54,542 bases of DNA from Verrucomicrobiota bacterium JB023. GTDB lineage: Bacteria > Verrucomicrobiota > Verrucomicrobiia > Verrucomicrobiales > Akkermansiaceae. The stretch covers positions 1 through 54,542 of the forward strand of contig JAUTCR010000019.1 of assembly GCA_030673895.1 (NCBI GenBank). The letters are read 5' to 3'. Of this stretch, positions 41,952 to 54,192 are shown one piece after another; within the stretch, counting starts at the first letter, position 1, and every line of letters starts with the position of its first letter. The notes beneath the pieces were generated by a model, which did no database searches, was not told the origin of the DNA, and was given only the letters and a program-made list of their open reading frames with translations. The translations under genes and the position numbers were made by a program.

Positions 41952-41971
41952 AGTTCAAATTTTATTGAACT
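41952..41971. promoter_or_regulatory. Palindromic operator candidate upstream of the GbsR/MarR-like gene
   Basis: AGTTCAAATTTTATTGAACT is an inverted repeat of 7-bp arms around a 6-base spacer, 28 bases before the GTG start at 42000. An almost identical sequence (18 of 20) recurs at 43051-43070 before the exopolysaccharide genes. Confidence 0.6.
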
Positions 41972-41999
41972 TTGCTTCACCCTTCGGCATCTTCCTGTC

Positions 42000-42503
42000 G
42001 TGTCGGAGGCAGTGACAGACTCAAACCCGGGTCTTACCGAAATGGAGAGCCGAACCATTTCTTATTTTTGCGATGGAGTAAAGGTTCTCGGCTTGCCCCG
42101 TTCGGTGGGGGAAATTTACGGGCTTCTCTTTGTTTCGAGGGAGCCCTTGTCGATGGCTGACCTAGTGGAGAAGCTAGGGATTAGCAAGGGTTCAGCTAGT
42201 CAAGGGTTACGTCTCCTGCGTGCCTTGGGAGCGCTCAATGAGGTCAAGGGGATTGACGAGCGTCGCACTTATTTTAAAGCGAATATGAGTTTGAAGCGCT
42301 TGGTCGGAGGCTTTATTCGCGGTCAGATTCGTCCGCATTTGCGGAGTGGGGAGGAGAAGCTCGATCAGCTTCATATGATAGTTGAGGAGGTAGAAGATGA
42401 GGAGTCGAGAAAGTTTTACCAAGAGCGTCTCGACAAGTTGGAGCGTTGGAGTAAACGGGGGCAGATGGTTTTGCCTCTCCTACAACGATTTTTGGGCGAA
42501 TGA
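42000..42503 (+). CDS. GbsR/MarR-like winged-helix transcriptional regulator
   Basis: This 167-residue protein has a winged helix-turn-helix: LGLPRSVGEIYGLLFVSREPLSMADLVEKLGISKGSASQGLRLLRALGALNEV, typical of the GbsR branch of the MarR superfamily. A wing (DERRTYFKAN) and a C-terminal helical dimerisation region follow. It begins with GTG at 42000; an internal ATG at 42042 is an alternative. Its stop overlaps the NusG-like start (ATGA). It heads the exopolysaccharide locus and is preceded by a 20-bp palindrome, so autoregulation is likely (inference). The ligand is unknown. Confidence 0.85.
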   Translation: MSEAVTDSNPGLTEMESRTISYFCDGVKVLGLPRSVGEIYGLLFVSREPLSMADLVEKLGISKGSASQGLRLLRALGALNEVKGIDERRTYFKANMSLKRLVGGFIRGQIRPHLRSGEEKLDQLHMIVEEVEDEESRKFYQERLDKLERWSKRGQMVLPLLQRFLGE

Positions 42504-43042
42504 GTTCCGACGAAGAATCGAAGCCAGCCTGGTATTGTCTGCGTAGTCAGACCAAGCGCGAGCACATCGCCGCGGCCACCTTGGCGCGTCTGGATGAGGT
42601 TGAGGTTTTTTGCCCCCGCATTCGTTACCGCAAGCCCACCCGGCGGGGGGTCATCTGGTGGGTCGAACCCCTCTTTCCGGGTTACCTGCTGGCTCGCTTT
42701 GAGCAGACTCAATCGTTGCGCGATGTTCTTCATACCCAGGGAGTCAGCGGGATTGTGAAGTTCGGCAGCACCATCCCGGCACTCGATGCGGCATTCGTCG
42801 AATCGCTACGGGAGGAATTCGCCGCCGAGGCGGATCAGGCCGAGATGCTTACCATTGAGCGAAAGCTCTCTCCGGGGGATGAAGTGGAGATGGTGGATGG
42901 GGCCTTCAAAGGGCTCACCGGCCAGATCCTCGAGGTCATTCCCTCCAAGGAGCGGGTGATGGTTCTGCTCGAGTTTCTCGGTCAGGAGCGTCCCATCGTG
43001 GTCGATCCCTTCAGTCTCGTCCTCCGTGAAAAGGACGCATGA
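42500..43042 (+). CDS. Specialised NusG paralogue (RfaH/UpxY/LoaP-like antiterminator)
   Basis: This 180-residue protein has a NusG N-terminal domain (AWYCLRSQTKREHIAAATL near 10-28, then PLFPGYLLARFE and VSGIVKFG) and a C-terminal KOW domain (LSPGDEVEMVDGAFKGLTGQILEV). The PLFPGYLLARF core matches NusG, but the protein is not in a secE-rpl context and instead overlaps a regulator gene at the front of an exopolysaccharide cluster. RfaH, UpxY and LoaP paralogues ride RNA polymerase through long polysaccharide operons and suppress termination there. A leader hairpin, an ops-like motif and an intra-operon terminator downstream fit such a role. Confidence 0.88.
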   Translation: MSSDEESKPAWYCLRSQTKREHIAAATLARLDEVEVFCPRIRYRKPTRRGVIWWVEPLFPGYLLARFEQTQSLRDVLHTQGVSGIVKFGSTIPALDAAFVESLREEFAAEADQAEMLTIERKLSPGDEVEMVDGAFKGLTGQILEVIPSKERVMVLLEFLGQERPIVVDPFSLVLREKDA

Positions 43043-43070
43043 ACTGATTTAGTTCATTTTTTATTGAACT
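43039..43070. promoter_or_regulatory. Double palindrome, operator candidate for the exopolysaccharide genes
   Basis: AGTTCATTTTTTATTGAACT (43051-43070) matches the site at 41952-41971 in 18 of 20 positions. It overlaps a second perfect palindrome, ATGAACT-GATTT-AGTTCAT (43039-43057). Together they give three TGAACT/AGTTCA half-sites, spaced for cooperative dimer binding, immediately after the NusG-like stop codon. Confidence 0.6.
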
Positions 43071-43104: not shown

Positions 43105-43164
43105 CGGGTTCGCCCGGCTTTTACCGTTGGTTCCGGTTCTGCTGGGACCAATGGCGGACGCATG
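43105..43164 (+). promoter_or_regulatory. Leader RNA hairpins and ops-like element before the first sugar gene
   Basis: The transcript leader has a small CGGG-TTCG-CCCG tetraloop hairpin (43105-43116). It also has an 11-bp stem, CCGTTGGTTCC pairing with GGGACCAATGG (43124-43134 and 43144-43154, two G-U pairs). The second stem runs into GGCGGACGCATG (43153-43164), which matches the E. coli RfaH-recruiting ops sequence GGCGGTAGCGTG at 9 of 12 positions. It lies between the NusG-like gene and the epimerase start at 43230. Confidence 0.4.
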
Positions 43165-43229: not shown

Positions 43230-44222
43230 ATGAGCAAGAAAGTCCTTGTAGCAGGTGGAGGCGGCTTTATCGGAGGCCATCTCGCACGAGTTCACATCGA
43301 ACGAGGCCACGATGTCGTCGTCACAGACGTCAAGCCTATCGACCAATGGTATCAGCTTCATGAGAGCGCTGAGAATATTCAGGCTAACATGGAGGAGAAG
43401 GGGGCTTGTTACAAGGTCATGGAAGGTTGTGATGAAGTTTACAACCTCGCTTGTAATATGGGTGGCATGGGCTTCATCGAGAACAATCGCAGCCTCTGCA
43501 TGTTGAGTGTTCTCATCAATACCCACATGCTCATGGCTGCCAAGGATCTCGGTATCGACAAATATTTCTATTCGTCCAGTGCCTGCATCTATCCTGACTA
43601 CCGTCAGACGGATGCCGAGGTCACCGCCTTGAAGGAGAGTGATGCCTATCCTGCCATGCCCGAGAACGGCTATGGTTGGGAAAAACTCTTCTCCGAGCGT
43701 CTCTGCAAGAATTTCGAGGAAGACTTTGGTTTCATTTCCAAGGTTTACCGTTTCCACAATGTCTATGGTCCTTATGGAACGTGGGATGGTGGCCGTGAAA
43801 AAGCTCCTGCCGCAATGTGCCGCAAGGTCATTGAGTGCATGGACTCTGGTAATATGGAGATGGAGATTTGGGGTGATGGTGAGCAGACCCGTTCGTTCAT
43901 GTATATCGATGACTGCATTACCGGCATCGATAAGTTGATGGAATCGGATTACACGGATCCGCTGAACTTGGGCCGCAGCGAGCTGGTCACAATCAATCAG
44001 CTTCTTTCCACCGTGGAAGATATCGCGGGCGTCAAAGTCGACCGCAAATACAATCTCGATGCTCCCCAGGGGGTTCGCGGACGGAACTCCGACAACACCC
44101 TCATCAAGGAAAAGCTGGGTTGGGAGCCGGAAATTGACCTGCGCTCGGGCATGGAAAAAACCTTCCATTGGATTAAGGAGCAATACGACCGCAAGAAAGC
44201 GGGCGAGGCGACTGTCCTCTAA
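43230..44222 (+). CDS. NAD-dependent epimerase, GDP-mannose 3,5-epimerase-like
   Basis: This 330-residue extended short-chain dehydrogenase has a nucleotide loop (VAGGGGFIGGHLA), then NLACNMGGMGFIENN, SSSACIYPDYRQ, KESDAYPAMPENGYGWEKLFSE (catalytic Tyr-x3-Lys), RFHNVYGPYGTWDGGREKAPAAMCRK and GDGEQTRSFMYIDDC. These blocks are those of GDP-mannose 3,5-epimerase, which converts GDP-mannose to GDP-L-galactose or GDP-L-gulose. It is the first structural gene after the regulatory leader and ends in a strong terminator. Close bacterial relatives with other sugar substrates are possible. Confidence 0.85.
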   Translation: MSKKVLVAGGGGFIGGHLARVHIERGHDVVVTDVKPIDQWYQLHESAENIQANMEEKGACYKVMEGCDEVYNLACNMGGMGFIENNRSLCMLSVLINTHMLMAAKDLGIDKYFYSSSACIYPDYRQTDAEVTALKESDAYPAMPENGYGWEKLFSERLCKNFEEDFGFISKVYRFHNVYGPYGTWDGGREKAPAAMCRKVIECMDSGNMEMEIWGDGEQTRSFMYIDDCITGIDKLMESDYTDPLNLGRSELVTINQLLSTVEDIAGVKVDRKYNLDAPQGVRGRNSDNTLIKEKLGWEPEIDLRSGMEKTFHWIKEQYDRKKAGEATVL

Positions 44223-44234
44223 GAATTTCGCATC

Positions 44235-44270
44235 ACGGCGGGAAGGTAAGTCTTCCCGCCGTTTTACTTA
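44235..44270 (+). terminator. Strong intrinsic terminator inside the exopolysaccharide locus
   Basis: A perfect 11-bp stem, ACGGCGGGAAG-GTAAGT-CTTCCCGCCGT (44235-44262), is followed by TTTACTTA. It lies between the epimerase and glycosyltransferase genes, both on the plus strand, and would stop most transcripts unless they were antiterminated. Confidence 0.85.
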
Positions 44271-44292
44271 TTCACCCCTTCAGCATTTCACG

Positions 44293-45126
44293 GTGATTAC
44301 CAGCACCCGCGAACCGCAGCTGCCGGCTCTTGCCCAAGGTCGTTCCAACGTCCTTGGCGTGGGGATCACGCCGCTCAATCTCGACTTGGCCTGTCAGGCC
44401 TTGGCGGAAGGAGCGGATTGCCCGGGCTTCACTGGCTTTGTCACCGTCACAGGTGTCCACGGGGTGGTGGAGTCCTTGCGCGATGAGGATCTCCAGCGCA
44501 TTCACAACCGTTCCTTTCTCTCTACGCCCGATGGCATGCCCATGGTTTGGGTTGGCCGTTTGAATGGTTTCAAGCACATGGACCGGGTCTATGGCCCGGA
44601 CCTCATGCTTGATGTGTTCAAGATGAGTGAAGCCACCGGTCACCGCCATTTCTTCTTCGGAGGTGCCGAGGGAGTGGCTTCCTTGCTCCGCGAGAAGCTG
44701 GCCGAGCGCTATCCCAAGGCGTCGGTGGTCGATGTTTACACTCCGCCCTTCCGGCCTCTGACCGAGGAGGAAGAAGAAGCCTTGGTCGAGAGATTGGATG
44801 AGCATCGACCTCATTTCTTTTGGGTCGGACTGAGCACTCCCAAGCAGGAGAAGTTCATGTCCGCCTTTCTCGAGAAATATGCGGACCGCTTTGCCGACTG
44901 GGAACATGGACTCGTCATGCTCGGAGTCGGGGCGGCCTTTGATTTTCATTCCGGCCGCGTCGTGCAAGCTCCCCGTTGGATCCAACGCAGTGGTTTCGAG
45001 TGGTTGTTTCGGGTCTGCATGGATCCCAAGAGACTGTGGAAAAGATATGCTGTCTCTAACACCGTCTTCTTGTCTAGGTTGCTGCCGGCGATGATGGGGC
45101 TAAAGAAATACCCTCTCAAGAGCTAA
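44293..45126 (+). CDS. WecG/TagA/CpsF family glycosyltransferase
   Basis: This protein of about 277 residues from a GTG start carries family blocks LGVGITPLNLDLACQAL, VTGVHGVVESLRDE, STPDGMPMVWVGRLNG, RVYGPDLMLDVF, HFFFGGAEGVASLLREKL, PPFRPLTEEEE, VGLSTPKQEKFM and MLGVGAAFDFHSGRVVQAPRWIQRSGFEWLFR. Family members add N-acetylmannosaminuronate or N-acetylmannosamine to lipid-linked precursors. The frame is open upstream to 44059, overlapping the epimerase gene, but similarity begins near 44293. A later start is also possible. Confidence 0.9.
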   Translation: MITSTREPQLPALAQGRSNVLGVGITPLNLDLACQALAEGADCPGFTGFVTVTGVHGVVESLRDEDLQRIHNRSFLSTPDGMPMVWVGRLNGFKHMDRVYGPDLMLDVFKMSEATGHRHFFFGGAEGVASLLREKLAERYPKASVVDVYTPPFRPLTEEEEEALVERLDEHRPHFFWVGLSTPKQEKFMSAFLEKYADRFADWEHGLVMLGVGAAFDFHSGRVVQAPRWIQRSGFEWLFRVCMDPKRLWKRYAVSNTVFLSRLLPAMMGLKKYPLKS

Positions 45127-45176
45127 GCGCAGCCAATCTCCCTTTTGCATCAGTTATCCCCCAATTAGGAACAATA

Positions 45177-46157
45177 ATGAAACTTCTAGTCACAGGAGGA
45201 GCCGGATACATCGGTTCCCATACCGTCCGCGAACTGGTCTCGGCAGGTCACGAGGTGATTGTCTTGGATAATCTTGTCTATGGTCACCGTGAAGCCCTGA
45301 TCGACGACGGCGTTCAACTCTATGAAGGAGACTTGGGCGACCAGGATTTCGTTCGGCAAATCTTCACTGAGCATGCCATTGAGGCCGTCATCCATTTCGC
45401 CGCCTATGCTTATGTTGGCGAATCGGTTCACGAGCCTCTCAAATACTATCAAAACAATCTCGCCGCTCCGCTCAATCTCCTCACCGTGATGAAGGAGTAT
45501 GATTGCAAGCGCTTCATCTTCTCCTCCACCTGCGCCACCTACGGCGTGCCGGCCACCATTCCGATCTCCGAGAACGAGTCGCAGGAGCCCATCAATCCTT
45601 ATGGCCAGAGCAAGCTCATGCTTGAGCAGGTGCTCAAGGATTGCGATGCCGCCTGGGGCTTGAAGTCCGTCTTCCTGCGCTATTTCAATGCTTCGGGAGC
45701 CTCTCTCGATGGCAAAATCGGTGAGGCCCACGACCCGGAGACGCACCTCATCCCGCGCGTCCTCATGGCCATTCGTGGAGAGATTCCGCAAGTCGATGTC
45801 TTCGGGACCGATTACGATACGCCCGATGGCACCTGCATCCGCGACTACATCCACGTCATCGATTTGGCCGACGCCCACCTGCGAGCCCTCGATTTCCTGC
45901 AGCGCGAGCAGGTGAGCGATTACTTCAATCTCGGCACCGGACACGGCATCTCGGTCAAGGCCATCCTCGAGGCTGCCGAAAAAGTCTCCGGGAAAACCGT
46001 GCCCGTCGTCTATGGCGACCGCAGGGAAGGGGACCCGCCCCGTCTCATCGCCGATGCCTCCAAGGCCAAGGAGAAGCTTGGCTGGGTCGCGAAACACAGC
46101 GACGTCGACCAGATCCTGCAGACCGCCTGGAACTGGGACGGAAACTTTGGCAAGTGA
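45177..46157 (+). CDS. galE: UDP-glucose 4-epimerase GalE
   Basis: This 326-residue enzyme interconverts UDP-glucose and UDP-galactose. Motifs: MKLLVTGGAGYIGSHTVREL (NAD loop), NLVYGHREAL, FAAYAYVGESVHEPLKYYQNN, FSSTCATYG, NPYGQSKLMLEQ (Tyr-x3-Lys), RYFNASGA, DYDTPDGTCIRDYIHVIDLADAH and NLGTGHGISV. AGGA lies ahead of the ATG. It supplies sugars for the exopolysaccharide. Confidence 0.96.
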   Translation: MKLLVTGGAGYIGSHTVRELVSAGHEVIVLDNLVYGHREALIDDGVQLYEGDLGDQDFVRQIFTEHAIEAVIHFAAYAYVGESVHEPLKYYQNNLAAPLNLLTVMKEYDCKRFIFSSTCATYGVPATIPISENESQEPINPYGQSKLMLEQVLKDCDAAWGLKSVFLRYFNASGASLDGKIGEAHDPETHLIPRVLMAIRGEIPQVDVFGTDYDTPDGTCIRDYIHVIDLADAHLRALDFLQREQVSDYFNLGTGHGISVKAILEAAEKVSGKTVPVVYGDRREGDPPRLIADASKAKEKLGWVAKHSDVDQILQTAWNWDGNFGK

Positions 46158-46185
46158 GCCGGGCCCGACCCGCTCCCCACTCGTT

Positions 46186-46779
46186 TTGAAAGAGAATATC
46201 CACCCTGACTTCGAGCGCTTTGTCAGTCGGCAAAGCAAGGAAGAGCTGCTTGGGCAAAAAGGCGTCGTCCTCTGGATGTATGGCCTCTCCGGCTCGGGCA
46301 AGTCGACCATCGCCACACAGGTCGAAAAGTCTCTGCGCGCGCAGAATCGTCTCACCGTGGTCCTCGATGGCGACAACCTGCGCAGCGGACTCAATTCGGA
46401 CCTCGGTTTCACCGATGAGGACCGCAATGAGAACGTCCGGCGCACCGCCGAGGTCGCGAAGATATTTGCCAATCAGGGACTGATCACCATCGTCTCGGTG
46501 ATCACGCCGCTCCGCCGTTTCCGCGATCTGGCCCGCAACGTCATCGGCGCCGATTTCCGCGAGGTCTACGTGCACGCGAATTTCGAAACCTGCGCCCAGC
46601 GTGACCCCAAGGGACTCTATCAAAAGGTGGCCTCTGGCAAGGTGGCCAGCTTCACCGGCAAGGACAGCGGCTTCGAGCAGCCCGAGTCCTGTGACCTTTT
46701 TCTCGATACCGAACAACAATCGGTCGATGACAGTGCCCAAGCGGTCATTCAGCTCATCGACGCCATCACCCAAGACTAA
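46186..46779 (+). CDS. cysC: Adenylylsulfate kinase CysC
   Basis: This protein of about 197 residues from a TTG start (KENIHPDFERF is the typical CysC N-terminus) phosphorylates APS to PAPS. Walker A is GLSGSGKST; further blocks are LDGDNLRSGLNSDLGFTDEDRNENVRR, FREVYVHANFETCAQRDPKGLYQKV and FTGKDSGFEQPE. In-frame TTG at 46147 is an alternative start. It is not fused to CysN as in some bacteria. Four bases separate it from cysD. In this locus it points to PAPS supply for sulfation. Confidence 0.93.
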   Translation: MKENIHPDFERFVSRQSKEELLGQKGVVLWMYGLSGSGKSTIATQVEKSLRAQNRLTVVLDGDNLRSGLNSDLGFTDEDRNENVRRTAEVAKIFANQGLITIVSVITPLRRFRDLARNVIGADFREVYVHANFETCAQRDPKGLYQKVASGKVASFTGKDSGFEQPESCDLFLDTEQQSVDDSAQAVIQLIDAITQD

Positions 46780-46782
46780 CCA

Positions 46783-47688
46783 ATGCCTGACTACCAACTC
46801 AGTCACCTCGACCAACTCGAGGCCGAAGCTCTCTTTATCCTGAGAGAGACCGCGGCCCAATTCGAGAATCCGGCCCTCCTGTTCTCAGGCGGCAAGGATT
46901 CCATCGTCATGGCCCATCTGGCCTACAAAGCGTTTCACCCCGCTCGTCTCCCTTTCCCGCTCGTTCATGTCGATACTGGGCACAACTTCGTGGAGACCAT
47001 GGAATACCGCGACCAATTCGTGGAGAAGCTCGGTGCCCGCCTCGTCGTCGGTTCCGTGCAAGAGTCCATCGACAAGGGCCGCGTGGTTGAGGAGAAAGGC
47101 CCTGATGCCTCTCGGAACAAGCTGCAGATTGTCACCCTTCTTGACACCATCGAGGAGCACCAATTCGATGCCGCTCTCGGCGGTGGTCGCCGCGATGAGG
47201 AAAAGGCTCGCGCCAAGGAGCGCTTCTTCTCCCACCGTGATGACTTTGGTCAATGGGATCCTAAGAACCAGCGTCCCGAGCTCTGGAATCTCTTCAATGG
47301 TCGCAAGCACCAGGGCGAGCACTTCCGCGTTTTCCCGCTCTCCAACTTCACCGAGATGGACATCTGGATGTATATGAAGCGCGAAGGCATCGAGCTGCCC
47401 TCCCTCTACTACGCCCATGAGCGTGACTGCGTTATTCGTAATGGCACCATCCTCGCCGTCTCTGAGTTCGTGCAGCCCCGCGAAGGCGAAGAGGTCAAGA
47501 AGATGCGCATTCGTTTCCGCACCATGGGGGATGCCACCATCACCGGAGCCGTCGAGTCCGACGCCGACACCATTGACAAGATCATCGACGAAGTCGCCGC
47601 CGCCCGCCAGACCGAGCGCGGCAACCGCGCCGACGACAAACGCTCCGAAACCGCCATGGAAGACCGGAAGAAGGAAGGATATTTTTAG
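46783..47688 (+). CDS. cysD: Sulfate adenylyltransferase subunit 2 CysD
   Basis: This 301-residue PP-loop ATP pyrophosphatase forms APS from sulfate and ATP together with the GTPase CysN. It has LLFSGGKDSIVMAHLA, VDTGHNFVETMEYRD, GGGRRDEEKARAKERFFS, PLSNFTEMDIWMYM and RTMGDATITGAV, and ends KKEGYF as is usual. The partner gene cysN, normally directly downstream, is displaced by about 420 bases carrying a four-helix-bundle gene. Confidence 0.96.
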   Translation: MPDYQLSHLDQLEAEALFILRETAAQFENPALLFSGGKDSIVMAHLAYKAFHPARLPFPLVHVDTGHNFVETMEYRDQFVEKLGARLVVGSVQESIDKGRVVEEKGPDASRNKLQIVTLLDTIEEHQFDAALGGGRRDEEKARAKERFFSHRDDFGQWDPKNQRPELWNLFNGRKHQGEHFRVFPLSNFTEMDIWMYMKREGIELPSLYYAHERDCVIRNGTILAVSEFVQPREGEEVKKMRIRFRTMGDATITGAVESDADTIDKIIDEVAAARQTERGNRADDKRSETAMEDRKKEGYF

Positions 47689-47690
47689 GA

Positions 47691-48090
47691 AGTTTTCAGA
47701 GGACAGTGTAAAGTTTTAAGCGGCATCCTACCGTGGCCTATCAGTCCTTCGAAGATTTGCTTGTCTGGCAGCGTTCTTGTCAACTTGCAGTCAAGGTTTA
47801 CGAACTGATGAGGTCTTGCCGGGATTTCGCTTATCGGGACCAAATGATCCGGTCCTCATTGTCCATCCCATCAAATATTGCTGAAGGTGCGGAGAGGGGT
47901 TCCACCAAGGAATTCTGCCGCTTCCTACATATAGCCAAAGGCTCTGCCGCCGAATTGAGAACCCAATTTTATCTTTGCCAAAAGCTGGCCCTCATCCCTC
48001 CGCAGGAAGTGAAGAGGGGAATTGAGGAAACTAAAGAACTCAGCGCCATGCTACAGGGTCTCATTAATAAACTGAAAACTTAAAACTTTA
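47691..48090. repeat. Inverted repeats bracketing the inserted four-helix-bundle gene
   Basis: TAAAGTTTTAAG (47709-47720) is the exact reverse complement of CTTAAAACTTTA (48079-48090). A second pair, AGTTTTCAG (47691-47699) and CTGAAAACT (48072-48080), is also exact. They enclose a single gene, so the block looks like an inserted unit of about 400 bases. No target duplication or transposase was seen. Confidence 0.6.
47733..48083 (+). CDS. Four-helix-bundle (23S rRNA intervening-sequence / S23 family) protein
   Basis: This 116-residue protein with a GTG start has the S23/IVP family pattern: FEDLLVWQRSCQLAVKVYEL, FAYRDQMIRSSLSIPSNIAEGAERGSTKEFCRFLHIAKGSAAELRTQFYLCQKL. Homologues are encoded in intervening sequences of 23S rRNA genes and as scattered solitary genes; their function is not established. 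Here it sits between cysD and cysN, which usually adjoin, and is bracketed by inverted repeats. It is likely a recent insertion with no role in sulfate metabolism. Confidence 0.9.
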   Translation: MAYQSFEDLLVWQRSCQLAVKVYELMRSCRDFAYRDQMIRSSLSIPSNIAEGAERGSTKEFCRFLHIAKGSAAELRTQFYLCQKLALIPPQEVKRGIEETKELSAMLQGLINKLKT

Positions 48091-48104
48091 GACCTAAGAC
48101 TCAA

Positions 48105-49349
48105 ATGGATTTACTCCGATTCACTACTGCCGGTTCCGTCGATGACGGAAAATCAACTCTCATTGGCCGCCTCCTTTACGATTCCAAGTCGATCTTCGAG
48201 GATCAACTTGAGTCCATCGAGGAGTCGTCTCGCAAGAAAGGGGATGAGCACGTTAATCTCGCCCTCCTCACCGACGGCCTGCGTGCCGAGCGCGAGCAGG
48301 GGATCACCATCGATGTCGCCTACCGCTACTTCGCCACCCCCAAGCGCAAATTCATCATCGCCGACACCCCCGGCCACGTGCAATACACCCGTAATATGGT
48401 CACCGGCGCCTCTACCGCCAACTTGGCCATCATCCTCGTCGATGCGCGCAAGGGTGTTATCGAGCAAACCAAGAGGCACTCCTTCATCGCCGATCTGCTC
48501 CGCATCCAGCACGTCATCCTCGCGGTCAATAAGATGGACCTCGTTGACTACTCCGAGGAGCGCTTCAATGAGATCGTGGCCGAATACGAATCCTTCGCTT
48601 CGCGCCTCGGCAATATCGTCGATATCCAGCCCATCCCCATCTCTGCCCTCAATGGCGACAACGTCGTCGACAAGAGCGACAAGATGCCTTGGTATCAGGG
48701 CCCGACCTTCCTCTATCACCTGGAGAACGTTTACATCGGGGGAGAGGAGAACCACGTCGATGCTCGCTTCCCCGTGCAGTGGGTCACCCGCCCGCAGAGC
48801 GACAAGTGGCATGACTTTCGCGGTTTTGCCGGTCGCATCGCTGGCGGCGTCTTCAAGCCCGGCGACGATGTCGTTGTCCTCCCTTCTGGATTCAAGTCTA
48901 AGGTCAAGAGCATCCACACCGCCGATGGCGACCTTGAGGAAGCCTACTCACCCCAATCCGTCACCCTGACCCTTGAGGATGAGATCGATGCCTCGCGTGG
49001 CGACATGATTGCCAAGCCAAACAACCAGCCCAAGGTCGAGCAAAATATCGAGGCCATGATCTGCTGGTTCTCCAAGACGCCCCTGCAGGCCCGGGGTAAA
49101 TACCTCATCAAGCACACCTCCCTGGAAACCAAGGCCATTGTCCAGGAGATCCGCTACCAAGTGGACATCAACACCTTGCACAAAAAGGAAGACGCTCCGA
49201 CCTTCGAAATGAACGACATTGGGCGCATCAGCCTTCGCACCGCGGCCCCGCTTCTCCACGACGCCTACCGCCGCAACCGCACCACGGGCTCCTTCATCCT
49301 CGTCGACCCCGGCACCAATGAAACCATGGGTGCAGGGATGATTGTGTGA
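48105..49349 (+). CDS. cysN: Sulfate adenylyltransferase subunit 1 CysN (GTPase)
   Basis: This 414-residue EF-Tu-like GTPase stimulates CysD. It has G1 [17 protein letters not shown], the ERE(Q)[11 protein letters not shown] switch, G3 [12 protein letters not shown] and G4 NKMDLV, then two beta-barrel domains (RVQWVTRPQ-like [19 protein letters not shown]). It is shorter than NodQ-type proteins with a fused kinase. With CysD and CysC it makes PAPS in the cytoplasm. Confidence 0.96.
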
Positions 49350-49403
49350 GGTAAAATGGACCCAAATGCCCTTTCGCTGCTAGATTGACCAAGAGACACT
49401 AAG

Positions 49404-50276
49404 ATGAAAAACGGTGTTCTCATTCGAATACTTGGAAATGATCTTAGAACCCTCCATGGAGATCGACAGACAATCGACAATCTTAAATTTACTCTGCGAC
49501 ACGAATGCGAGTTTGAGGGTATCGAGAAGATCTTTCTTCTAAATCGACTCTGTTCAGAGGAAAAACGAGAAGAAATCCTAGAAATATTAAATGCATTTGG
49601 AATTGCCCACTTCGAAATACCTTTTTCGTTTTCGGAGTTTCTGAATATTTCTGGTGAACGATTGACCAAAAAAGAGTTCTCGCTTCTATCTAGAAAGGAT
49701 AAGGTGAAATTTCTTTATCCCTTTAATCTGTACTTGATCAACAACAATGGTTCGAGAAATTATTGTATCGATTATGCGAAGCGGCAAGGGTATGATTGGG
49801 TGTTTCCATTAGACTCTAATAATTTCTTGACTCGTGCTTCTTACGAGAAGCTGGCGCAAGGCTTGAAAAAACGAACGCAGTATATTGTCTTGCCTCAATA
49901 CCGTATAATGGATGCGGGATTATCGAACGATGACTGGGCAACACAGGCTTATGAACTAGACGGTTTGCCTATTCATGAGCCTCAACTCGGGTTCTCAACA
50001 AGTTGTCGACATCGATTCAACGAGAAGATATGCTATGGTTGTGGGCCTAAGGCGGAAATGCTCAATGCTTTAGGGGTTGAAGGAGAGTGGAATAAGTGGC
50101 GGGATAACGAGAAATATCTAAGTATCAAGACCAGACGTTTCTGGCTGACCCGCACACAAGTAATTGGTGAGTCCGTTCGGCTAAATCCACTATCACGGAG
50201 GAATGAAAAGTCGGCAAACTGGAATCTTCGTCAAGAAGGGCTCTACGAACTCGTGAGAAACCTTTGGGAAAAGTAA
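49404..50276 (+). CDS. Glycosyltransferase-like protein of the polysaccharide locus (family uncertain)
   Basis: This 290-residue soluble protein begins MKNGVLIRILGNDLRTLHG followed by QTIDNLKFTLRHE and KIFLLNRL, a start reminiscent of GT-A-type sugar-nucleotide folds, with YDWVFPLDSNNF where a DxD-like motif might lie. Later come FSTSCRHRFNEKICYGCGPKAEML and a C-terminal WNLRQEGLYELVRN helix. I do not recognise the family with confidence. It is the first of the AT-rich genes after cysN and is probably an enzyme of exopolysaccharide assembly. Confidence 0.6.
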   Translation: MKNGVLIRILGNDLRTLHGDRQTIDNLKFTLRHECEFEGIEKIFLLNRLCSEEKREEILEILNAFGIAHFEIPFSFSEFLNISGERLTKKEFSLLSRKDKVKFLYPFNLYLINNNGSRNYCIDYAKRQGYDWVFPLDSNNFLTRASYEKLAQGLKKRTQYIVLPQYRIMDAGLSNDDWATQAYELDGLPIHEPQLGFSTSCRHRFNEKICYGCGPKAEMLNALGVEGEWNKWRDNEKYLSIKTRRFWLTRTQVIGESVRLNPLSRRNEKSANWNLRQEGLYELVRNLWEK

Positions 50277-50374
50277 AACCGTTGCACGCCGATCTAATTG
50301 AAGTTTCTTATGCGCAACGTCGTAGCAGAAGAGGCGCTTTGACTTAGGTTAGGTAGTTATCCCGGGTAAAATCG

Positions 50375-51811
50375 ATGCCAACCAATTTTTGTCAGAGGCT
50401 TTTGAGGTCTGGGACGGCGACGCAATGGCTGTTTCTTATCGTAAGACCATTGAAGTTGCTTCTTTTGACACCCCTGGTGTTAGGGAGTTGGACAGAGCAG
50501 GAGATTGCGGTTTTTTACATTGTACTATCAGTAGTAGCATTCACTAATCTAATAACTGAATTTCTTCCCGGGATCCTAAATCCGGTGCTCGTATTTTTCT
50601 ATTCGGGAGTCGAAAATCTCGAAAATATTGGAAAAGAAAATCATGCATCTAATGAGCCCAATTGGAAGGGGTTTGGTGACACTCTCCATACGCTAAGAGC
50701 TTCCCAATGGATTCTAATGATTCTGTTTGTAGCTGTTTCGACAGCTATCTTGCTGAAGTCGCTAGTAAATCAGATTGGCTGGGAACCTTTTAAAAATCAT
50801 TATTATGAGGTCCCAATAATTATCGCCCTGCAGATCATACTGCAAGTTTCGGCAGCAGGATACAGTGGTGCGCTTCGTGCGGTGAACGAAGTAGCTGCGG
50901 TGAATAAGAATGGAGCGATTTTCGCATTACTTCAAATACTGGGTTCCGCTCTTGCTGTTTATTGCGGCGGAACACTTACGAATATCCTATGGATACAGCT
51001 GATGGTCGCTCTAGTGGGTCGTCTCGCGCTTTTCAGATTATACCGATCCGTCTTGCCCGATTTTCCCGAGGTACAATTCAGCAAAGAAATCCTGTCTTTT
51101 GTATTAAAACCTGCTTTGAAACGTCTGGTTGGTGTTCTGAGCGTTACAGGTGTACGGCTACTAAGTCCCGCACTTCTGGCAGGCATACTTCTCAGTCCAC
51201 AGCTCATTCTGTATTCGCTTATGTTAGCAATACTGAATACGCTAATTTCAGCCTCGAATGCCTTCGTTCTAAGTCAACTTCCTCGACTAGGTTCTCTTTA
51301 TGCCAGAGGAGAGGTTGGTAGGCTACGGAGTCTTGTTTTTAGACGGGTTTGTTATTCGGTATCGATGTTTCTGGTGCTCGCAATTCCTTGTGTGCTGAGT
51401 GGATGGTTCTATACTAACCATTTTGATTCCAAGTTGGCACCTTTGAGTATGGTCGCTGGAATTCTCGCAGTCTTTTTGTTTCTCGCTCTGTTTTTGATAA
51501 ATATCCTTTCGGCATGTTACAACGTGACCAATGAGCGCCCATTTTATTTGAGAAATTTGTTCTCCGGTCTGATCACTTTGGGTTTGTTGTATTCTCTCGC
51601 ACAAGCCAGCTTTGGTGGCATTGTTCCCGTTCTACTTATAGTCATTGCTCCCCAGGTTCTGTTGGTTTTTCCTTTGCTTATACAAAAAATGAAAATGTTT
51701 CTCTCGCTAAGTGATCAATATAGCTTCAAAAATTACATTAAGGTAGAATCTGCGCGATTACTCGAAGAGTTGAGAGGTTATCCTAAGAAAGGCAAAAAGC
51801 TCTACTCCTAA
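50375..51811 (+). CDS. MOP-superfamily polysaccharide flippase (Wzx-like)
   Basis: This 478-residue protein has about a dozen hydrophobic helices spread along its length (e.g. WLFLIVRPLKLLLLTPLVL, FYIVLSVVAFTNLITEF, LLSPALLAGILLSPQLILYSLML, FLVLAIPCVLSGWF). The distribution fits lipid-linked oligosaccharide flippases. It would move undecaprenyl-linked repeat units across the inner membrane. No Wzy polymerase is seen in the window. The start is the ATG at 50375, about 100 bases after the preceding gene. Confidence 0.75.
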   Translation: MPTNFCQRLLRSGTATQWLFLIVRPLKLLLLTPLVLGSWTEQEIAVFYIVLSVVAFTNLITEFLPGILNPVLVFFYSGVENLENIGKENHASNEPNWKGFGDTLHTLRASQWILMILFVAVSTAILLKSLVNQIGWEPFKNHYYEVPIIIALQIILQVSAAGYSGALRAVNEVAAVNKNGAIFALLQILGSALAVYCGGTLTNILWIQLMVALVGRLALFRLYRSVLPDFPEVQFSKEILSFVLKPALKRLVGVLSVTGVRLLSPALLAGILLSPQLILYSLMLAILNTLISASNAFVLSQLPRLGSLYARGEVGRLRSLVFRRVCYSVSMFLVLAIPCVLSGWFYTNHFDSKLAPLSMVAGILAVFLFLALFLINILSACYNVTNERPFYLRNLFSGLITLGLLYSLAQASFGGIVPVLLIVIAPQVLLVFPLLIQKMKMFLSLSDQYSFKNYIKVESARLLEELRGYPKKGKKLYS

Positions 51812-51867
51812 CTGTGCTGCTGATCTTGGCCCGAAGAACAAAATCTGTCTAATTCAAAATATTTAAT

Positions 51868-52539
51868 ATGATTAACATCAAGAAAATCGTATGGGATTCT
51901 ACTGCTTTCTTGCCCGCTAGAGCAAGAATGCATGCTGATATTTACAAACAGCTTTTCAGGAACAAAGACTCTTTTCTAAATTCGACAGGGTGGCTCGAGA
52001 GTTTCAAAGAAAAGAAGCCAGTTGATAGCAATGGAGATGAAACCGTCTGGATGAACTATGCCATTACGAGGTTCCTCAAACAGCGGCTTAAGCCCGATTT
52101 CAAGCTGTTTGAATACGGTAGTGGATACTCAACAAGTTTCTACGCTGGTCTAGTTGAAAAGGTTGTTTCGGTGGAGTACGATCAAGAATGGGCTAAATTG
52201 GTTAAGGAGAAAATTCCATCCAATGCCAGTTTAATTATCCAGGGAAAAGATGTTGATGGTAAATATTGCCGCTCGATCAAGGCTGATAACGAACTCTATG
52301 ACGTCGTGGTGATTGATGGAAGGGACAGAGTCAATTGTGTTCGTCAAAGTGAAGGGTCGCTAACGTCTAGAGGAGTGGTAGTCTTAGATGATTCACAGAG
52401 GGAGGAATATAAAAAGTCATACGAGATCATGAATGAAAGGGGATATCGTTTCGTGGAGTTCGAAGGAATTAAGCCGACTGGAATTTATTATTATCGGACG
52501 ACTGTGTTTTATAAAGACGGAAATTGTTTGGGGATCTAA
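51868..52539 (+). CDS. SAM-dependent methyltransferase-like protein
   Basis: This 223-residue protein has a class I methyltransferase core: KLFEYGSGYSTSFYAG (SAM-binding motif I), VVSVEYDQEW (motif II acidic), ELYDVVVIDGRDRVNCV and GVVVLDDSQREEYKKSYEIM. It resembles glycan-modifying methyltransferases in polysaccharide clusters. Acting on the sugar chain is inferred from context; the substrate is unknown. Its 3' end lies 26 bases before the chosen sulfotransferase start. Confidence 0.75.
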   Translation: MINIKKIVWDSTAFLPARARMHADIYKQLFRNKDSFLNSTGWLESFKEKKPVDSNGDETVWMNYAITRFLKQRLKPDFKLFEYGSGYSTSFYAGLVEKVVSVEYDQEWAKLVKEKIPSNASLIIQGKDVDGKYCRSIKADNELYDVVVIDGRDRVNCVRQSEGSLTSRGVVVLDDSQREEYKKSYEIMNERGYRFVEFEGIKPTGIYYYRTTVFYKDGNCLGI

Positions 52540-52565
52540 CCGGTAATCTTTGCTTCTTCTTTCCA

Positions 52566-53153
52566 ATGAACGTATTCATATTAAATACTGGCAGATGTGG
52601 CTCTACGACTTTTGCCAAAGCCTGTAGTCACATCGAAAACTTTACAGCCAAGCATGAGTCCCGGACGCATCTGTTGGGTGAATCTCGGTTAAACTACCCA
52701 CCGAACCATATCGAGGCTGATAATCGGTTGTCGTGGCTTCTGGGTAGGCTCGACGAGACTTATGGTGATTCCGCATTTTACGTCCATTTGACCAGAGAAC
52801 GCGAGCAGGTGGCCGAAAGTTTCGTGAAGCGCTATGATAGCGGAATCATCGAAGCGTATCGAGGGAAAGGCATTATGCTCAATTTGCCTGATAACTCTAA
52901 TCCTTTGGATGTAGCTCGAGATTACTGCGAAACAGTAGACTCGAATATTCGGCTATTTCTTCGGGATAAAAGCATGAAGATGAATATTCAGCTTGAAACA
53001 ATCGAGGTAGGATTCAGGGATTTCTGGGAGAAGATCGGTGCTGAGGGTGACATTGAAGGAGCTATCAAGGAGTTTTCCATTCGACACAATGCCTCGAAGG
53101 AGCCGAACCCTAAGAAGCCTAGCCTTCTGGGTAAGATTCTCTCCAAGAAGTGA
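52566..53153 (+). CDS. Sulfotransferase-like protein
   Basis: This 195-residue protein starts MNVFILNTGRCGSTTFAKA, the 5'-phosphosulfate-binding loop of PAPS-dependent sulfotransferases, and continues with a VHLTREREQVAESFVKRY segment matching the 3'-phosphate-binding region (Arg and Ser). The rest is compact. With CysD/CysN/CysC encoded nearby it would sulfate the exopolysaccharide. The ATG at 52566 was chosen because the loop starts there; the frame opens at 52524. Confidence 0.8.
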   Translation: MNVFILNTGRCGSTTFAKACSHIENFTAKHESRTHLLGESRLNYPPNHIEADNRLSWLLGRLDETYGDSAFYVHLTREREQVAESFVKRYDSGIIEAYRGKGIMLNLPDNSNPLDVARDYCETVDSNIRLFLRDKSMKMNIQLETIEVGFRDFWEKIGAEGDIEGAIKEFSIRHNASKEPNPKKPSLLGKILSKK

Positions 53154-53208
53154 TGGCTTTGCCGAATGGCTAGTTCGGTACTTTTTTGCCTTTCTCGTCT
53201 ATCTTTAG

Positions 53209-54192
53209 ATGTCGTTCTCTCCAGTAGTCTCGATTGTCATCCCGCTCTTCAATCGGGCTCGGCTTGTCTGTAGAACAATAGAATCGGTCCTTGCTCAATC
53301 ATACGATGATTGGGAGGTTCTTGTTGTTGACGACCATTCGACGGACGATTCATTTATAATTGTTGATCGATTCGTTAATTTAGACTCGCGAGTCCGTCTC
53401 TTCGAACGAACTGGGGACCGGCGGGGTGCTTGTGTTTGTCGGAATCAGGGTTTGGAAAAAGCCAAAGGAAAATATGTTATATTTCTTGATTCAGACGACA
53501 TAATGGCAGTAGATGCTTTGAGATCAAGGGTAGCTACTTTGGAGGCTGATAACCAGCTTGATTTCGTTGTTTCGGGCACTGTGATTTTTGAGGAGCAATT
53601 AGGCGATGTCTCAGCCTATCGATGTTTTCCTCATGAGACCGAGATTTCAGATTTCCTGCGGTTTCTGATGTTCGATCAGCCTTGGTTGACGACTGGGCCG
53701 ACTTGGCGCAAGAGCTTCTTGGATAAGCACGAGTTGCACTGGGATGAGAGTTTGCCTTGCTGGCAGGATTGGTTTTTCCATCTCAATGTCTTAGTGACGG
53801 AACCCAAGTATCAACGAATTCTTGGTTTTGATTCGGGTTGGAGAAGAGGAGGTATTGGTCAGATCTCAAAACCAAAAAAGGGAGATAAACGCGATTTCAG
53901 CGGTTTTTTCTCAGGCCTCGCACCATTTTTCAGTCGTGTTGCATCCGGCGGAGGTGAGTTGTCATCGATTCTACGGGAAATTTACCGAGCAGCTCTTCTT
54001 ACGAAAGGAATCGACAAATCCGCTTTCGGTTATTCGCATGATTGCCCCTTTAAGGACTATGTGATGTCTTCTTGGTTTCGAAGGTTTCTCCTGCTACAAT
54101 CTCAAGGCCTTCCTCGTCCTGTTAGAGGTGAGATGATTAAGTGTTTTGACCGTTTTGATTCTCTACAGCGTCCTCCTGTGAAGCTGACGTAA
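53209..54192 (+). CDS. GT2-family glycosyltransferase
   Basis: This 327-residue protein has a GT-A fold: VSIVIPLFNRARLVCRTIESVLAQSYDDWEVLVVDDHSTDDS, then GACVCRNQGLEKAKGKYVIFLDSDDIM (the DSDD motif binds metal and nucleotide-sugar). The acceptor-specificity part is C-terminal. It would add a sugar on the cytoplasmic face. The donor cannot be predicted. Confidence 0.9.
   Translation: MSFSPVVSIVIPLFNRARLVCRTIESVLAQSYDDWEVLVVDDHSTDDSFIIVDRFVNLDSRVRLFERTGDRRGACVCRNQGLEKAKGKYVIFLDSDDIMAVDALRSRVATLEADNQLDFVVSGTVIFEEQLGDVSAYRCFPHETEISDFLRFLMFDQPWLTTGPTWRKSFLDKHELHWDESLPCWQDWFFHLNVLVTEPKYQRILGFDSGWRRGGIGQISKPKKGDKRDFSGFFSGLAPFFSRVASGGGELSSILREIYRAALLTKGIDKSAFGYSHDCPFKDYVMSSWFRRFLLLQSQGLPRPVRGEMIKCFDRFDSLQRPPVKLT

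Follow-up and report, generated by a model that had tools for sequence, protein, structure and literature searches.

Why does a gene pair encoding a GbsR/MarR-type regulator and a NusG paralogue, set between two near-identical palindromes, stand at the head of a surface-polysaccharide locus in Verrucomicrobiota bacterium JB023? The stretch of DNA that we analysed (54,542 nt, hereinafter designated the window) had received an initial annotation proposing that the regulator binds both palindromes and controls itself as well as the sugar genes, so that the two regulators jointly set initiation and elongation. Here we examine the palindromes, the promoter and leader beside them and the two proteins. 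We arrive at a model of two-key control, acting on initiation and on elongation, which we consider probable, although binding, repression, release, recruitment and antitermination are all inferred without binding or expression data.

Palindromes A and B and their conservation beside the regulator

Both palindromes lie where the initial annotation had placed them (Table 1), and its gene calls hold: the regulator (P0001) contains a MarR_2 domain (PF12802), and the NusG-like protein (P0002) contains NusG and KOW domains (PF02357 and PF00467). The exact annotated motif, AGTTCA-N8-TGAACT, occurs in the whole 4.03 Mb Roseibacillus-type genome only as A and B; three further places match with one mismatch, and their cores are G/C at 5 or 6 of 8 bases. 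The pattern GTTCAWWNNNNNTTGAAC likewise matches exactly only at A and B, and no extra operators could be recognized with it in this genome, as matches with up to two mismatches number 138 against 142 for the reversed-pattern control. Within the window, the two matches found at up to two mismatches do not exceed chance (1.6 expected), and the weight of the palindromes therefore rests on their exactness, position and conservation.

Table 1 Features of the regulator-NusG locus and the adjoining polysaccharide genes (window coordinates)
Feature	Position	Strand	Remarks
Palindrome A	41952-41971	.	AGTTCAAATTTTATTGAACT; core dyad 41953-41970; putative operator upstream of gbsR-nusG
TTGAAC, right arm of A	41965-41970	+	Probable -35 box
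GbsR/MarR-type regulator gene (P0001)	42000-42503	+	GTG start, probably leaderless
RfaH/UpxY-like NusG paralogue gene (P0002)	42500-43042	+	4-base overlap with regulator gene
Palindrome B	43051-43070	.	AGTTCATTTTTTATTGAACT; core dyad 43052-43069; TTGAAC 43064-43069; putative polysaccharide-operon operator
Predicted leader hairpin	43124-43154	+	3' arm runs into ops-like element
Ops-like element	43153-43164	+	Variant GGCGGACGCATG; GACC just 5' at 43146-43149
First polysaccharide-operon gene	43230-44222	+	Epimerase/dehydratase family (PF01370)
Downstream same-strand genes	44233-54192	+	WecG-type glycosyltransferase, epimerase, APS kinase, CysD, CysN, weak Wzx-like, glycosyltransferase 2, some without family match

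Conservation beside orthologous regulators had been proposed as the check on the motif, and it passes. An exact GTTCA-N8-TGAAC dyad lies upstream of 132 of the 149 distinct regulator homologues (7 more have it with one mismatch and 10 have neither), when the search covers the 300 nt 5' of the matched region and its first 48 nt, while an equal stretch inside the regulator gene yields 0/149. These genes were gathered from the loci of the 30 best matches, from the best 80 of 497 and from another set of 30 loci. The dyad was present upstream of the regulator in 29 of the first 30 loci (28 exact, 1 with a mismatch), and exactly in 86 of the 95 loci of a second batch, which excluded homologues scoring below 140 bits and genomes that had been counted before; only 2 exact sites occur in 460,629 nt elsewhere. 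The dyad-bearing loci include other classes of the phylum, and conservation beside the regulator homologues rules out that the palindromes arose by chance. Conservation in the relatives covers the dyad GTTCA-N8-TGAAC and the AT-rich character of its core but not the outermost A/T of the annotated motif.

The TGAACT that had been annotated as an overlapping third half-site at 43039 actually occupies 43040-43045, where it overlaps the nusG stop codon. No TGAACT half-site precedes site B in the other Roseibacillus-type loci (L076, L097 and L098), which speaks against its being part of the operator; its occurrence is probably due to chance. Twelve of the 59 site-B loci (e.g. L104, L116 and L129) carry a second, mostly imperfect palindrome directly 5' of site B, in a tandem-operator-like arrangement. 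This set of 59 omits L072 (one mismatch, probably no site), which was still included in the 60 loci used for the ops count below.

The palindrome follows the regulator across genomes. Order-wide, a longer palindrome pattern is found in 52 of 58 genomes with the regulator versus 15 of 83 without it (Fisher p about 4e-18, which is no true probability because the genomes are related), and the operator is still present at 19 of 23 homologues that lack an adjacent nusG. In family f4, 39 of 42 genomes encode the NusG paralogue without a close regulator, and the pattern is present in 8 of 42; since distant regulator homologues occur in 5 of 6 f4 genomes among the matches listed, this family can be said to lack close ones only. 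The dyad thus tracks the regulator, with or without nusG, suggesting that the operator belongs to the regulator. One distant homologue of this kind in f4 (G021:C50:29652-30227) has a same-strand ops match behind it. Elsewhere, a regulator paralogue without an adjacent nusG (G097:C1:53897-54491, locus L087) has a variant site, GTTCATAATCCGCTGAAC, upstream and an ops match downstream.

The regulator itself is a MarR-type winged-helix protein related to MJ223 (1ku9, E 1.8e-14), the template used for GbsR according to the available portion of PMC6207618. Its best NCBIfam match, CudC, scores 32.5 bits, far under the cut-off of 218, and it cannot be called a CudC equivalog. SKGSASQGL, its helix region, hardly varies among the regulators.

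The operator arm doubles as a putative -35 box

At the 98 site A loci linked to nusG, a TA lies 16-17 nt 3' of TTGAAC in 62, against 0-5 at every other offset from 8 to 29, and the same spacing is seen in 10 of 24 homologues without an adjacent nusG. At site B, TA occurs at 16-18 nt in just 1 of 46 loci and no clear -10 element is found. Site A of the window is followed by a weak -10 element, CATCTT at 41988-41993. The T preceding TGAAC is kept in 94/98 linked site A and 44/46 site B copies, while its symmetry mate is kept in just 51/98 and 4/46, respectively. The first in-frame ATG or GTG lies 28-31 nt 3' of site A in 63 of 98 loci, suggesting leaderless transcripts; in the window, the centre of the dyad is about 38 bases 5' of the GTG start.

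By sequence, site A of the relatives therefore meets the description of an operator overlapping a -35 box, a feature of OpcR-type repressors; OpcR, which is also a GbsR-family protein, reportedly blocks the -35 region (PMC7396694, seen in part). An operator arm that doubles as a -35 box favours repression by occlusion, and the TTGAAC layout at nusG-linked site A, as far as sequence can tell, favours autorepression through blocking of RNA polymerase.

An ops-like element between nusG and the polysaccharide genes

The initial annotation overlooked an element 3' of nusG that resembles the 12-base ops of E. coli, GGCGGTAGCGTG (PMC5995543, available in part). The data support it as a second element, at the level of elongation, which extends the inference drawn there. 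In the window it begins 83 nt 3' of site B, and site B is 76 nt from the GACC. Among the 118 distinct loci with 350 nt of sequence 3' of nusG, 91 carry a near-ops within that distance (GACCNNNGGCGGNAGC, at most one mismatch over 12 fixed bases), compared with 0/118 in a coding stretch and 0/118 on the reverse strand. The RfaH criterion of an ops in the leaders of target operons is thus met in 91 of 118 loci; the variant in the window differs at 3 of 12 bases. The consensus in the relatives, GACCAAGGGCGG(C/T)AGCGTG, is near invariant except at G10, T11, G12 and base 6.

The element goes together with site B, being present in 59 of the 60 loci counted with site B and in 32 of 58 without it, and the two are 99-111 nt apart in 51 of the 59 loci that have both. 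The distance from site B to the GACC is shorter, 76-77 nt, in the window and in two further Roseibacillus-type loci. All 26 loci without ops (more than two mismatches) also lack site B. Six ops-less loci lie in genomes of family f1 (G100, G103, G117, G129, G134 and G137) in which a palindrome with ops is located elsewhere. In ten loci of genus g10 (family f2), the ops stands between the operator and the regulator gene, and where nusG is distant from the regulator, ops is found within 400 nt downstream in 5 of 40 loci. The four Roseibacillus-type loci read GGCGGACGC(A/T)TG, ops bases 6 and 7 being A and C. This variant retains bases 3 and 8, a pair in the RfaH complex (PMC5995543, in the part available).

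Genome-wide, the loose pattern GACCNNNGGCGGNAGC is uninformative on its own, the reversed control often scoring higher. A longer ops pattern gives 39 matches versus 6 in the control in 20 f4 genomes, 33 versus 7 in 20 regulator-bearing genomes, and 8 versus 0 in 20 genomes of genus g2, in which no paralogue was found; all of the g2 matches carry a different flank, ACC(T/G)CC. The JB023 genome also holds an ops relative without a palindrome (GGCGGATGCGTG / AACCAATGGCGGATGCGTG; G000, locus L282, C5:19994-20012, minus strand). The GGCGGATGCGTG match starts 85 nt 5' of a GDP-mannose dehydratase gene, which is followed by an epimerase gene and by genes for an ABC-2 membrane protein and a Wzt-domain ATPase; we retain this match, on C5, as a lead. 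Another ops-like match, on contig C29 of this genome, was set aside, as it lies within an open frame.

A covarying hairpin precedes the ops-like element

The leader of the window is predicted to fold with -21.9 kcal/mol (z -3.60), and 1 of 200 shuffles is equally stable. In the relatives, too, the ops often stands behind a hairpin with compensatory changes. We aligned 27 of the 29 leaders in which GGTTT starts exactly 25 nt 5' of GACC (68 of 92 leaders have a GGTTT somewhere in the 40 nt 5' of GACC). In this alignment 92.2% of the cells are paired, against at most 61.1% in slid controls; two-sided changes affect 55 cells, a number reached by 0 of 500 shuffles, and the covariation score is 0.523 versus 0.202 when shuffled. 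Counted by pair, 6 positions of the stem show two-sided change in the 27 leaders, which does not exceed the shuffles. RNAalifold alone returns nearly the same stem together with a small ops stem. Rfam gives no match to the window stretch up to E 5, and none at gathering scores for 8 loci.

The NusG paralogue is RfaH-like but scores under the RfaH cut-off

The best NCBIfam match of P0002 is RfaH (TIGR01955), at 80.8 bits under a cut-off of 144.5, and the protein also stays under the cut-offs for UpxY (60 of 100) and LoaP (46.3 of 125). The residues K10, H20, R23 and R73, through which RfaH contacts ops, are kept in 13, 42, 15 and 2 of 88 ops-bearing loci, respectively, and are Q, T, R and Q in the window; these positions were placed by hand from an alignment. 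An AlphaFold2 model has the KOW domain in beta form (mean pLDDT 87.5), a prediction that cannot exclude a fold switch. We consider P0002 to be RfaH-like; it may work like RfaH and should not be classed as RfaH.

All four Roseibacillus-type loci (L005, L076, L097 and L098), which carry the ops variant, encode D and L where RfaH has T68 and N70. These residues occur there in 0 and 2, respectively, of 88 other ops-bearing loci, and D at the T68 position is also seen in 2 of the 26 loci without ops.

Polysaccharide genes lie behind the palindromes

The genes downstream of the epimerase/dehydratase gene in the window (Table 1) are inferred to form one transcript. Those for APS kinase, CysD and CysN (46012-49349) suggest a sulfated polysaccharide, and a gene of the 23S rRNA intervening-sequence protein family (47733-48083) lies between cysD and cysN.

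A search for the motif upstream of polysaccharide genes, also proposed at the outset, recovered further copies in relatives, mostly before polysaccharide-related genes where these were sampled. The f1 genomes with the regulator contain 19 palindromes away from gbsR, of which 17 were fetched and 14 have an ops. With L055 left out for its GC-rich core (one AT-cored and one GC-cored site remained unfetched), 14 of 16 AT-cored palindromes are followed by an ops 93-117 nt further on. The two AT-cored palindromes without ops (L044 and L048) precede glmM-like genes, a call that Pfam confirms for L044; at both, the glmM-like gene is followed by a frame that resembles glmS by eye. Among ten proteins sampled downstream of such sites, eight fit polysaccharide precursors, transfer or sulfate activation and two have no match.

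A two-key model and its alternatives

In the model that we propose, the first key would be a dimer of the GbsR-type protein bound to GTTCA-N8-TGAAC. As the promoter-proximal arm is also the putative -35 box, the bound protein would exclude RNA polymerase and repress both its own gbsR-nusG pair, from site A, and the sugar operon, from site B, until an unknown ligand frees the DNA. Sulfate may be considered as such a ligand: the GbsR-type protein CydE is reported to use it (PMC6207618), and genes for sulfate activation are present in the operon. The second key would follow from the first, in that derepression also raises the level of the NusG paralogue, which would load onto RNA polymerase at the hairpin and ops-like element in the sugar-operon leader and sustain it through the long operon. 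The link between initiation and elongation suggested in the initial annotation is supported and gains a physical element in the ops-like sequence; binding, the sign of regulation and recruitment remain inferences. Several observations count against the model: the missing -10 element at site B, the weak one in the window, the lower frequency of TA at homologues without an adjacent nusG, the short site B to GACC distance and the three deviating ops bases in the window, the 10 regulators without a site, the 26 loci without ops, the few RfaH contacts in the NusG paralogue, the ops matches of genus g2 without a paralogue and the one covariation measure that does not exceed shuffles.

The palindromes themselves might have another reader. 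That the NusG paralogue, and not the regulator, responds to them, be it as DNA or in the form of an RNA hairpin, would agree with their flanking the gbsR-nusG pair on both sides and with the short hairpins they can form (-3.3 and -3.4 kcal/mol), and is nevertheless scarcely credible: f4 genomes have the paralogue and mostly lack the pattern, the dyad is near 0 of the 40 loci in which nusG lies away from the regulator, and site A, located at a promoter, would be transcribed little or not at all. On this distribution across genomes we rejected the candidate. We also regard it as very improbable that a different protein binds the palindromes and the neighbouring regulator is a bystander. All measurements are of conservation and co-occurrence, which leaves room for such a protein, but the site accompanies the regulator across families and classes, and the regulator's helix region is nearly invariant, like the site.

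Even if the regulator is the reader, it could activate rather than repress, touching RNA polymerase from the site that overlaps the -35 box and generating positive feedback. Class-II activator sites are centred near the position that the window's dyad centre takes relative to the GTG, and a site B without a clear -10 element would suit a promoter in need of help. We hold this to be unlikely, as the extra T of TTGAAC is kept although symmetry does not require one and site A often has a TA at the right spacing, as self-sufficient promoters do; the family members described are repressors (PMC6207618 and PMC7396694, both available in part). Doubt may equally be directed at the second key: the ops-like element might merely pause RNA polymerase or shape the leader RNA, with the adjacent NusG paralogue not reading it at all. 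The scarcity of RfaH contact residues would be explained in this way, and ops fits the general pause consensus (PMC5995543 and PMC7819879, in the parts available), but the near invariance of the element exceeds that consensus, the element sits in gene leaders, and it is enriched in the f4 genomes that have the paralogue without a close regulator. We judge a pause-only role to be quite unlikely. Two-key control, with repression at the operator and recruitment at the ops-like element, remains our preferred reading.

Implications

Taken further, these data would mean that a NusG family outside Proteobacteria reads a 12-base signal close to that of RfaH through different residues and with no predicted fold switch, at an ops just 3' of a covarying hairpin. 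In Verrucomicrobiota this would take place under a GbsR-type repressor, so that a single regulator would open the way for initiation and, through the release of nusG, for elongation as well. In Roseibacillus the ops signal and its putative reader may have changed in concert, an observation confined to one lineage. We give this whole proposal an even chance. What surprises, judged from sequence, is that another phylum has an almost unaltered ops signal next to a putative reader that has diverged. We found no earlier description of this system in the open-licence literature on GbsR, exopolysaccharide, RfaH, ops, UpxY and NusG paralogues in Verrucomicrobia, as far as the accessible text of these sources extends. 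In a non-proteobacterial phylum, the sequence thus reveals a probable element for recruitment together with a hairpin and a regulatory gene as a fixed neighbour. If the proposal is true, reading of ops by a divergent protein becomes directly testable, and the order of operator then ops offers a rule for locating polysaccharide regulons in these bacteria.

Comparison with known systems

The regulator resembles OpcR and GbsR of Bacillus subtilis, GbsR-family proteins with a MarR-type fold and an AT-rich inverted repeat, of which OpcR acts at the -35 region like the operator here (PMC7396694, portions available). They differ in that the B. subtilis proteins control osmolyte genes and the present one is linked to polysaccharide genes; the half-sites of B. 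subtilis GbsR, as far as the partial source describes them, are 4 bp apart and 3' of the start site, whereas those found here are 8 bp apart and at -35.

The NusG paralogue shares with UpxY of Bacteroides, LoaP of Bacillus and TaA of Myxococcus the character of a specialised NusG for capsule, polysaccharide or antibiotic operons, and UpxY and TaA are encoded within their own target operons (PMC7593976 and PMC7819879, partial text). The portions of these two sources that were available give no ops for UpxY, LoaP or TaA, whereas an ops-like element is found here; PMC7593976 describes, in its available part, the recruitment of operon-encoded NusG paralogues as unknown.

RfaH, too, is a specialised NusG, and acts with the 12-base GGCGGTAGCGTG in the leaders of long surface-polysaccharide operons (PMC5995543, consulted in part). 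The small ops stem (C3-G8) is kept in the elements found here. RfaH is described as mostly proteobacterial and without common gene neighbours (PMC7593976, within the same limits). Compared with RfaH, the paralogue described here scores under the cut-off, retains few ops contacts and has a KOW domain predicted as beta, not as the alpha-helical, autoinhibiting form. Its gene also stands next to that of a GbsR-type regulator with an operator of its own.
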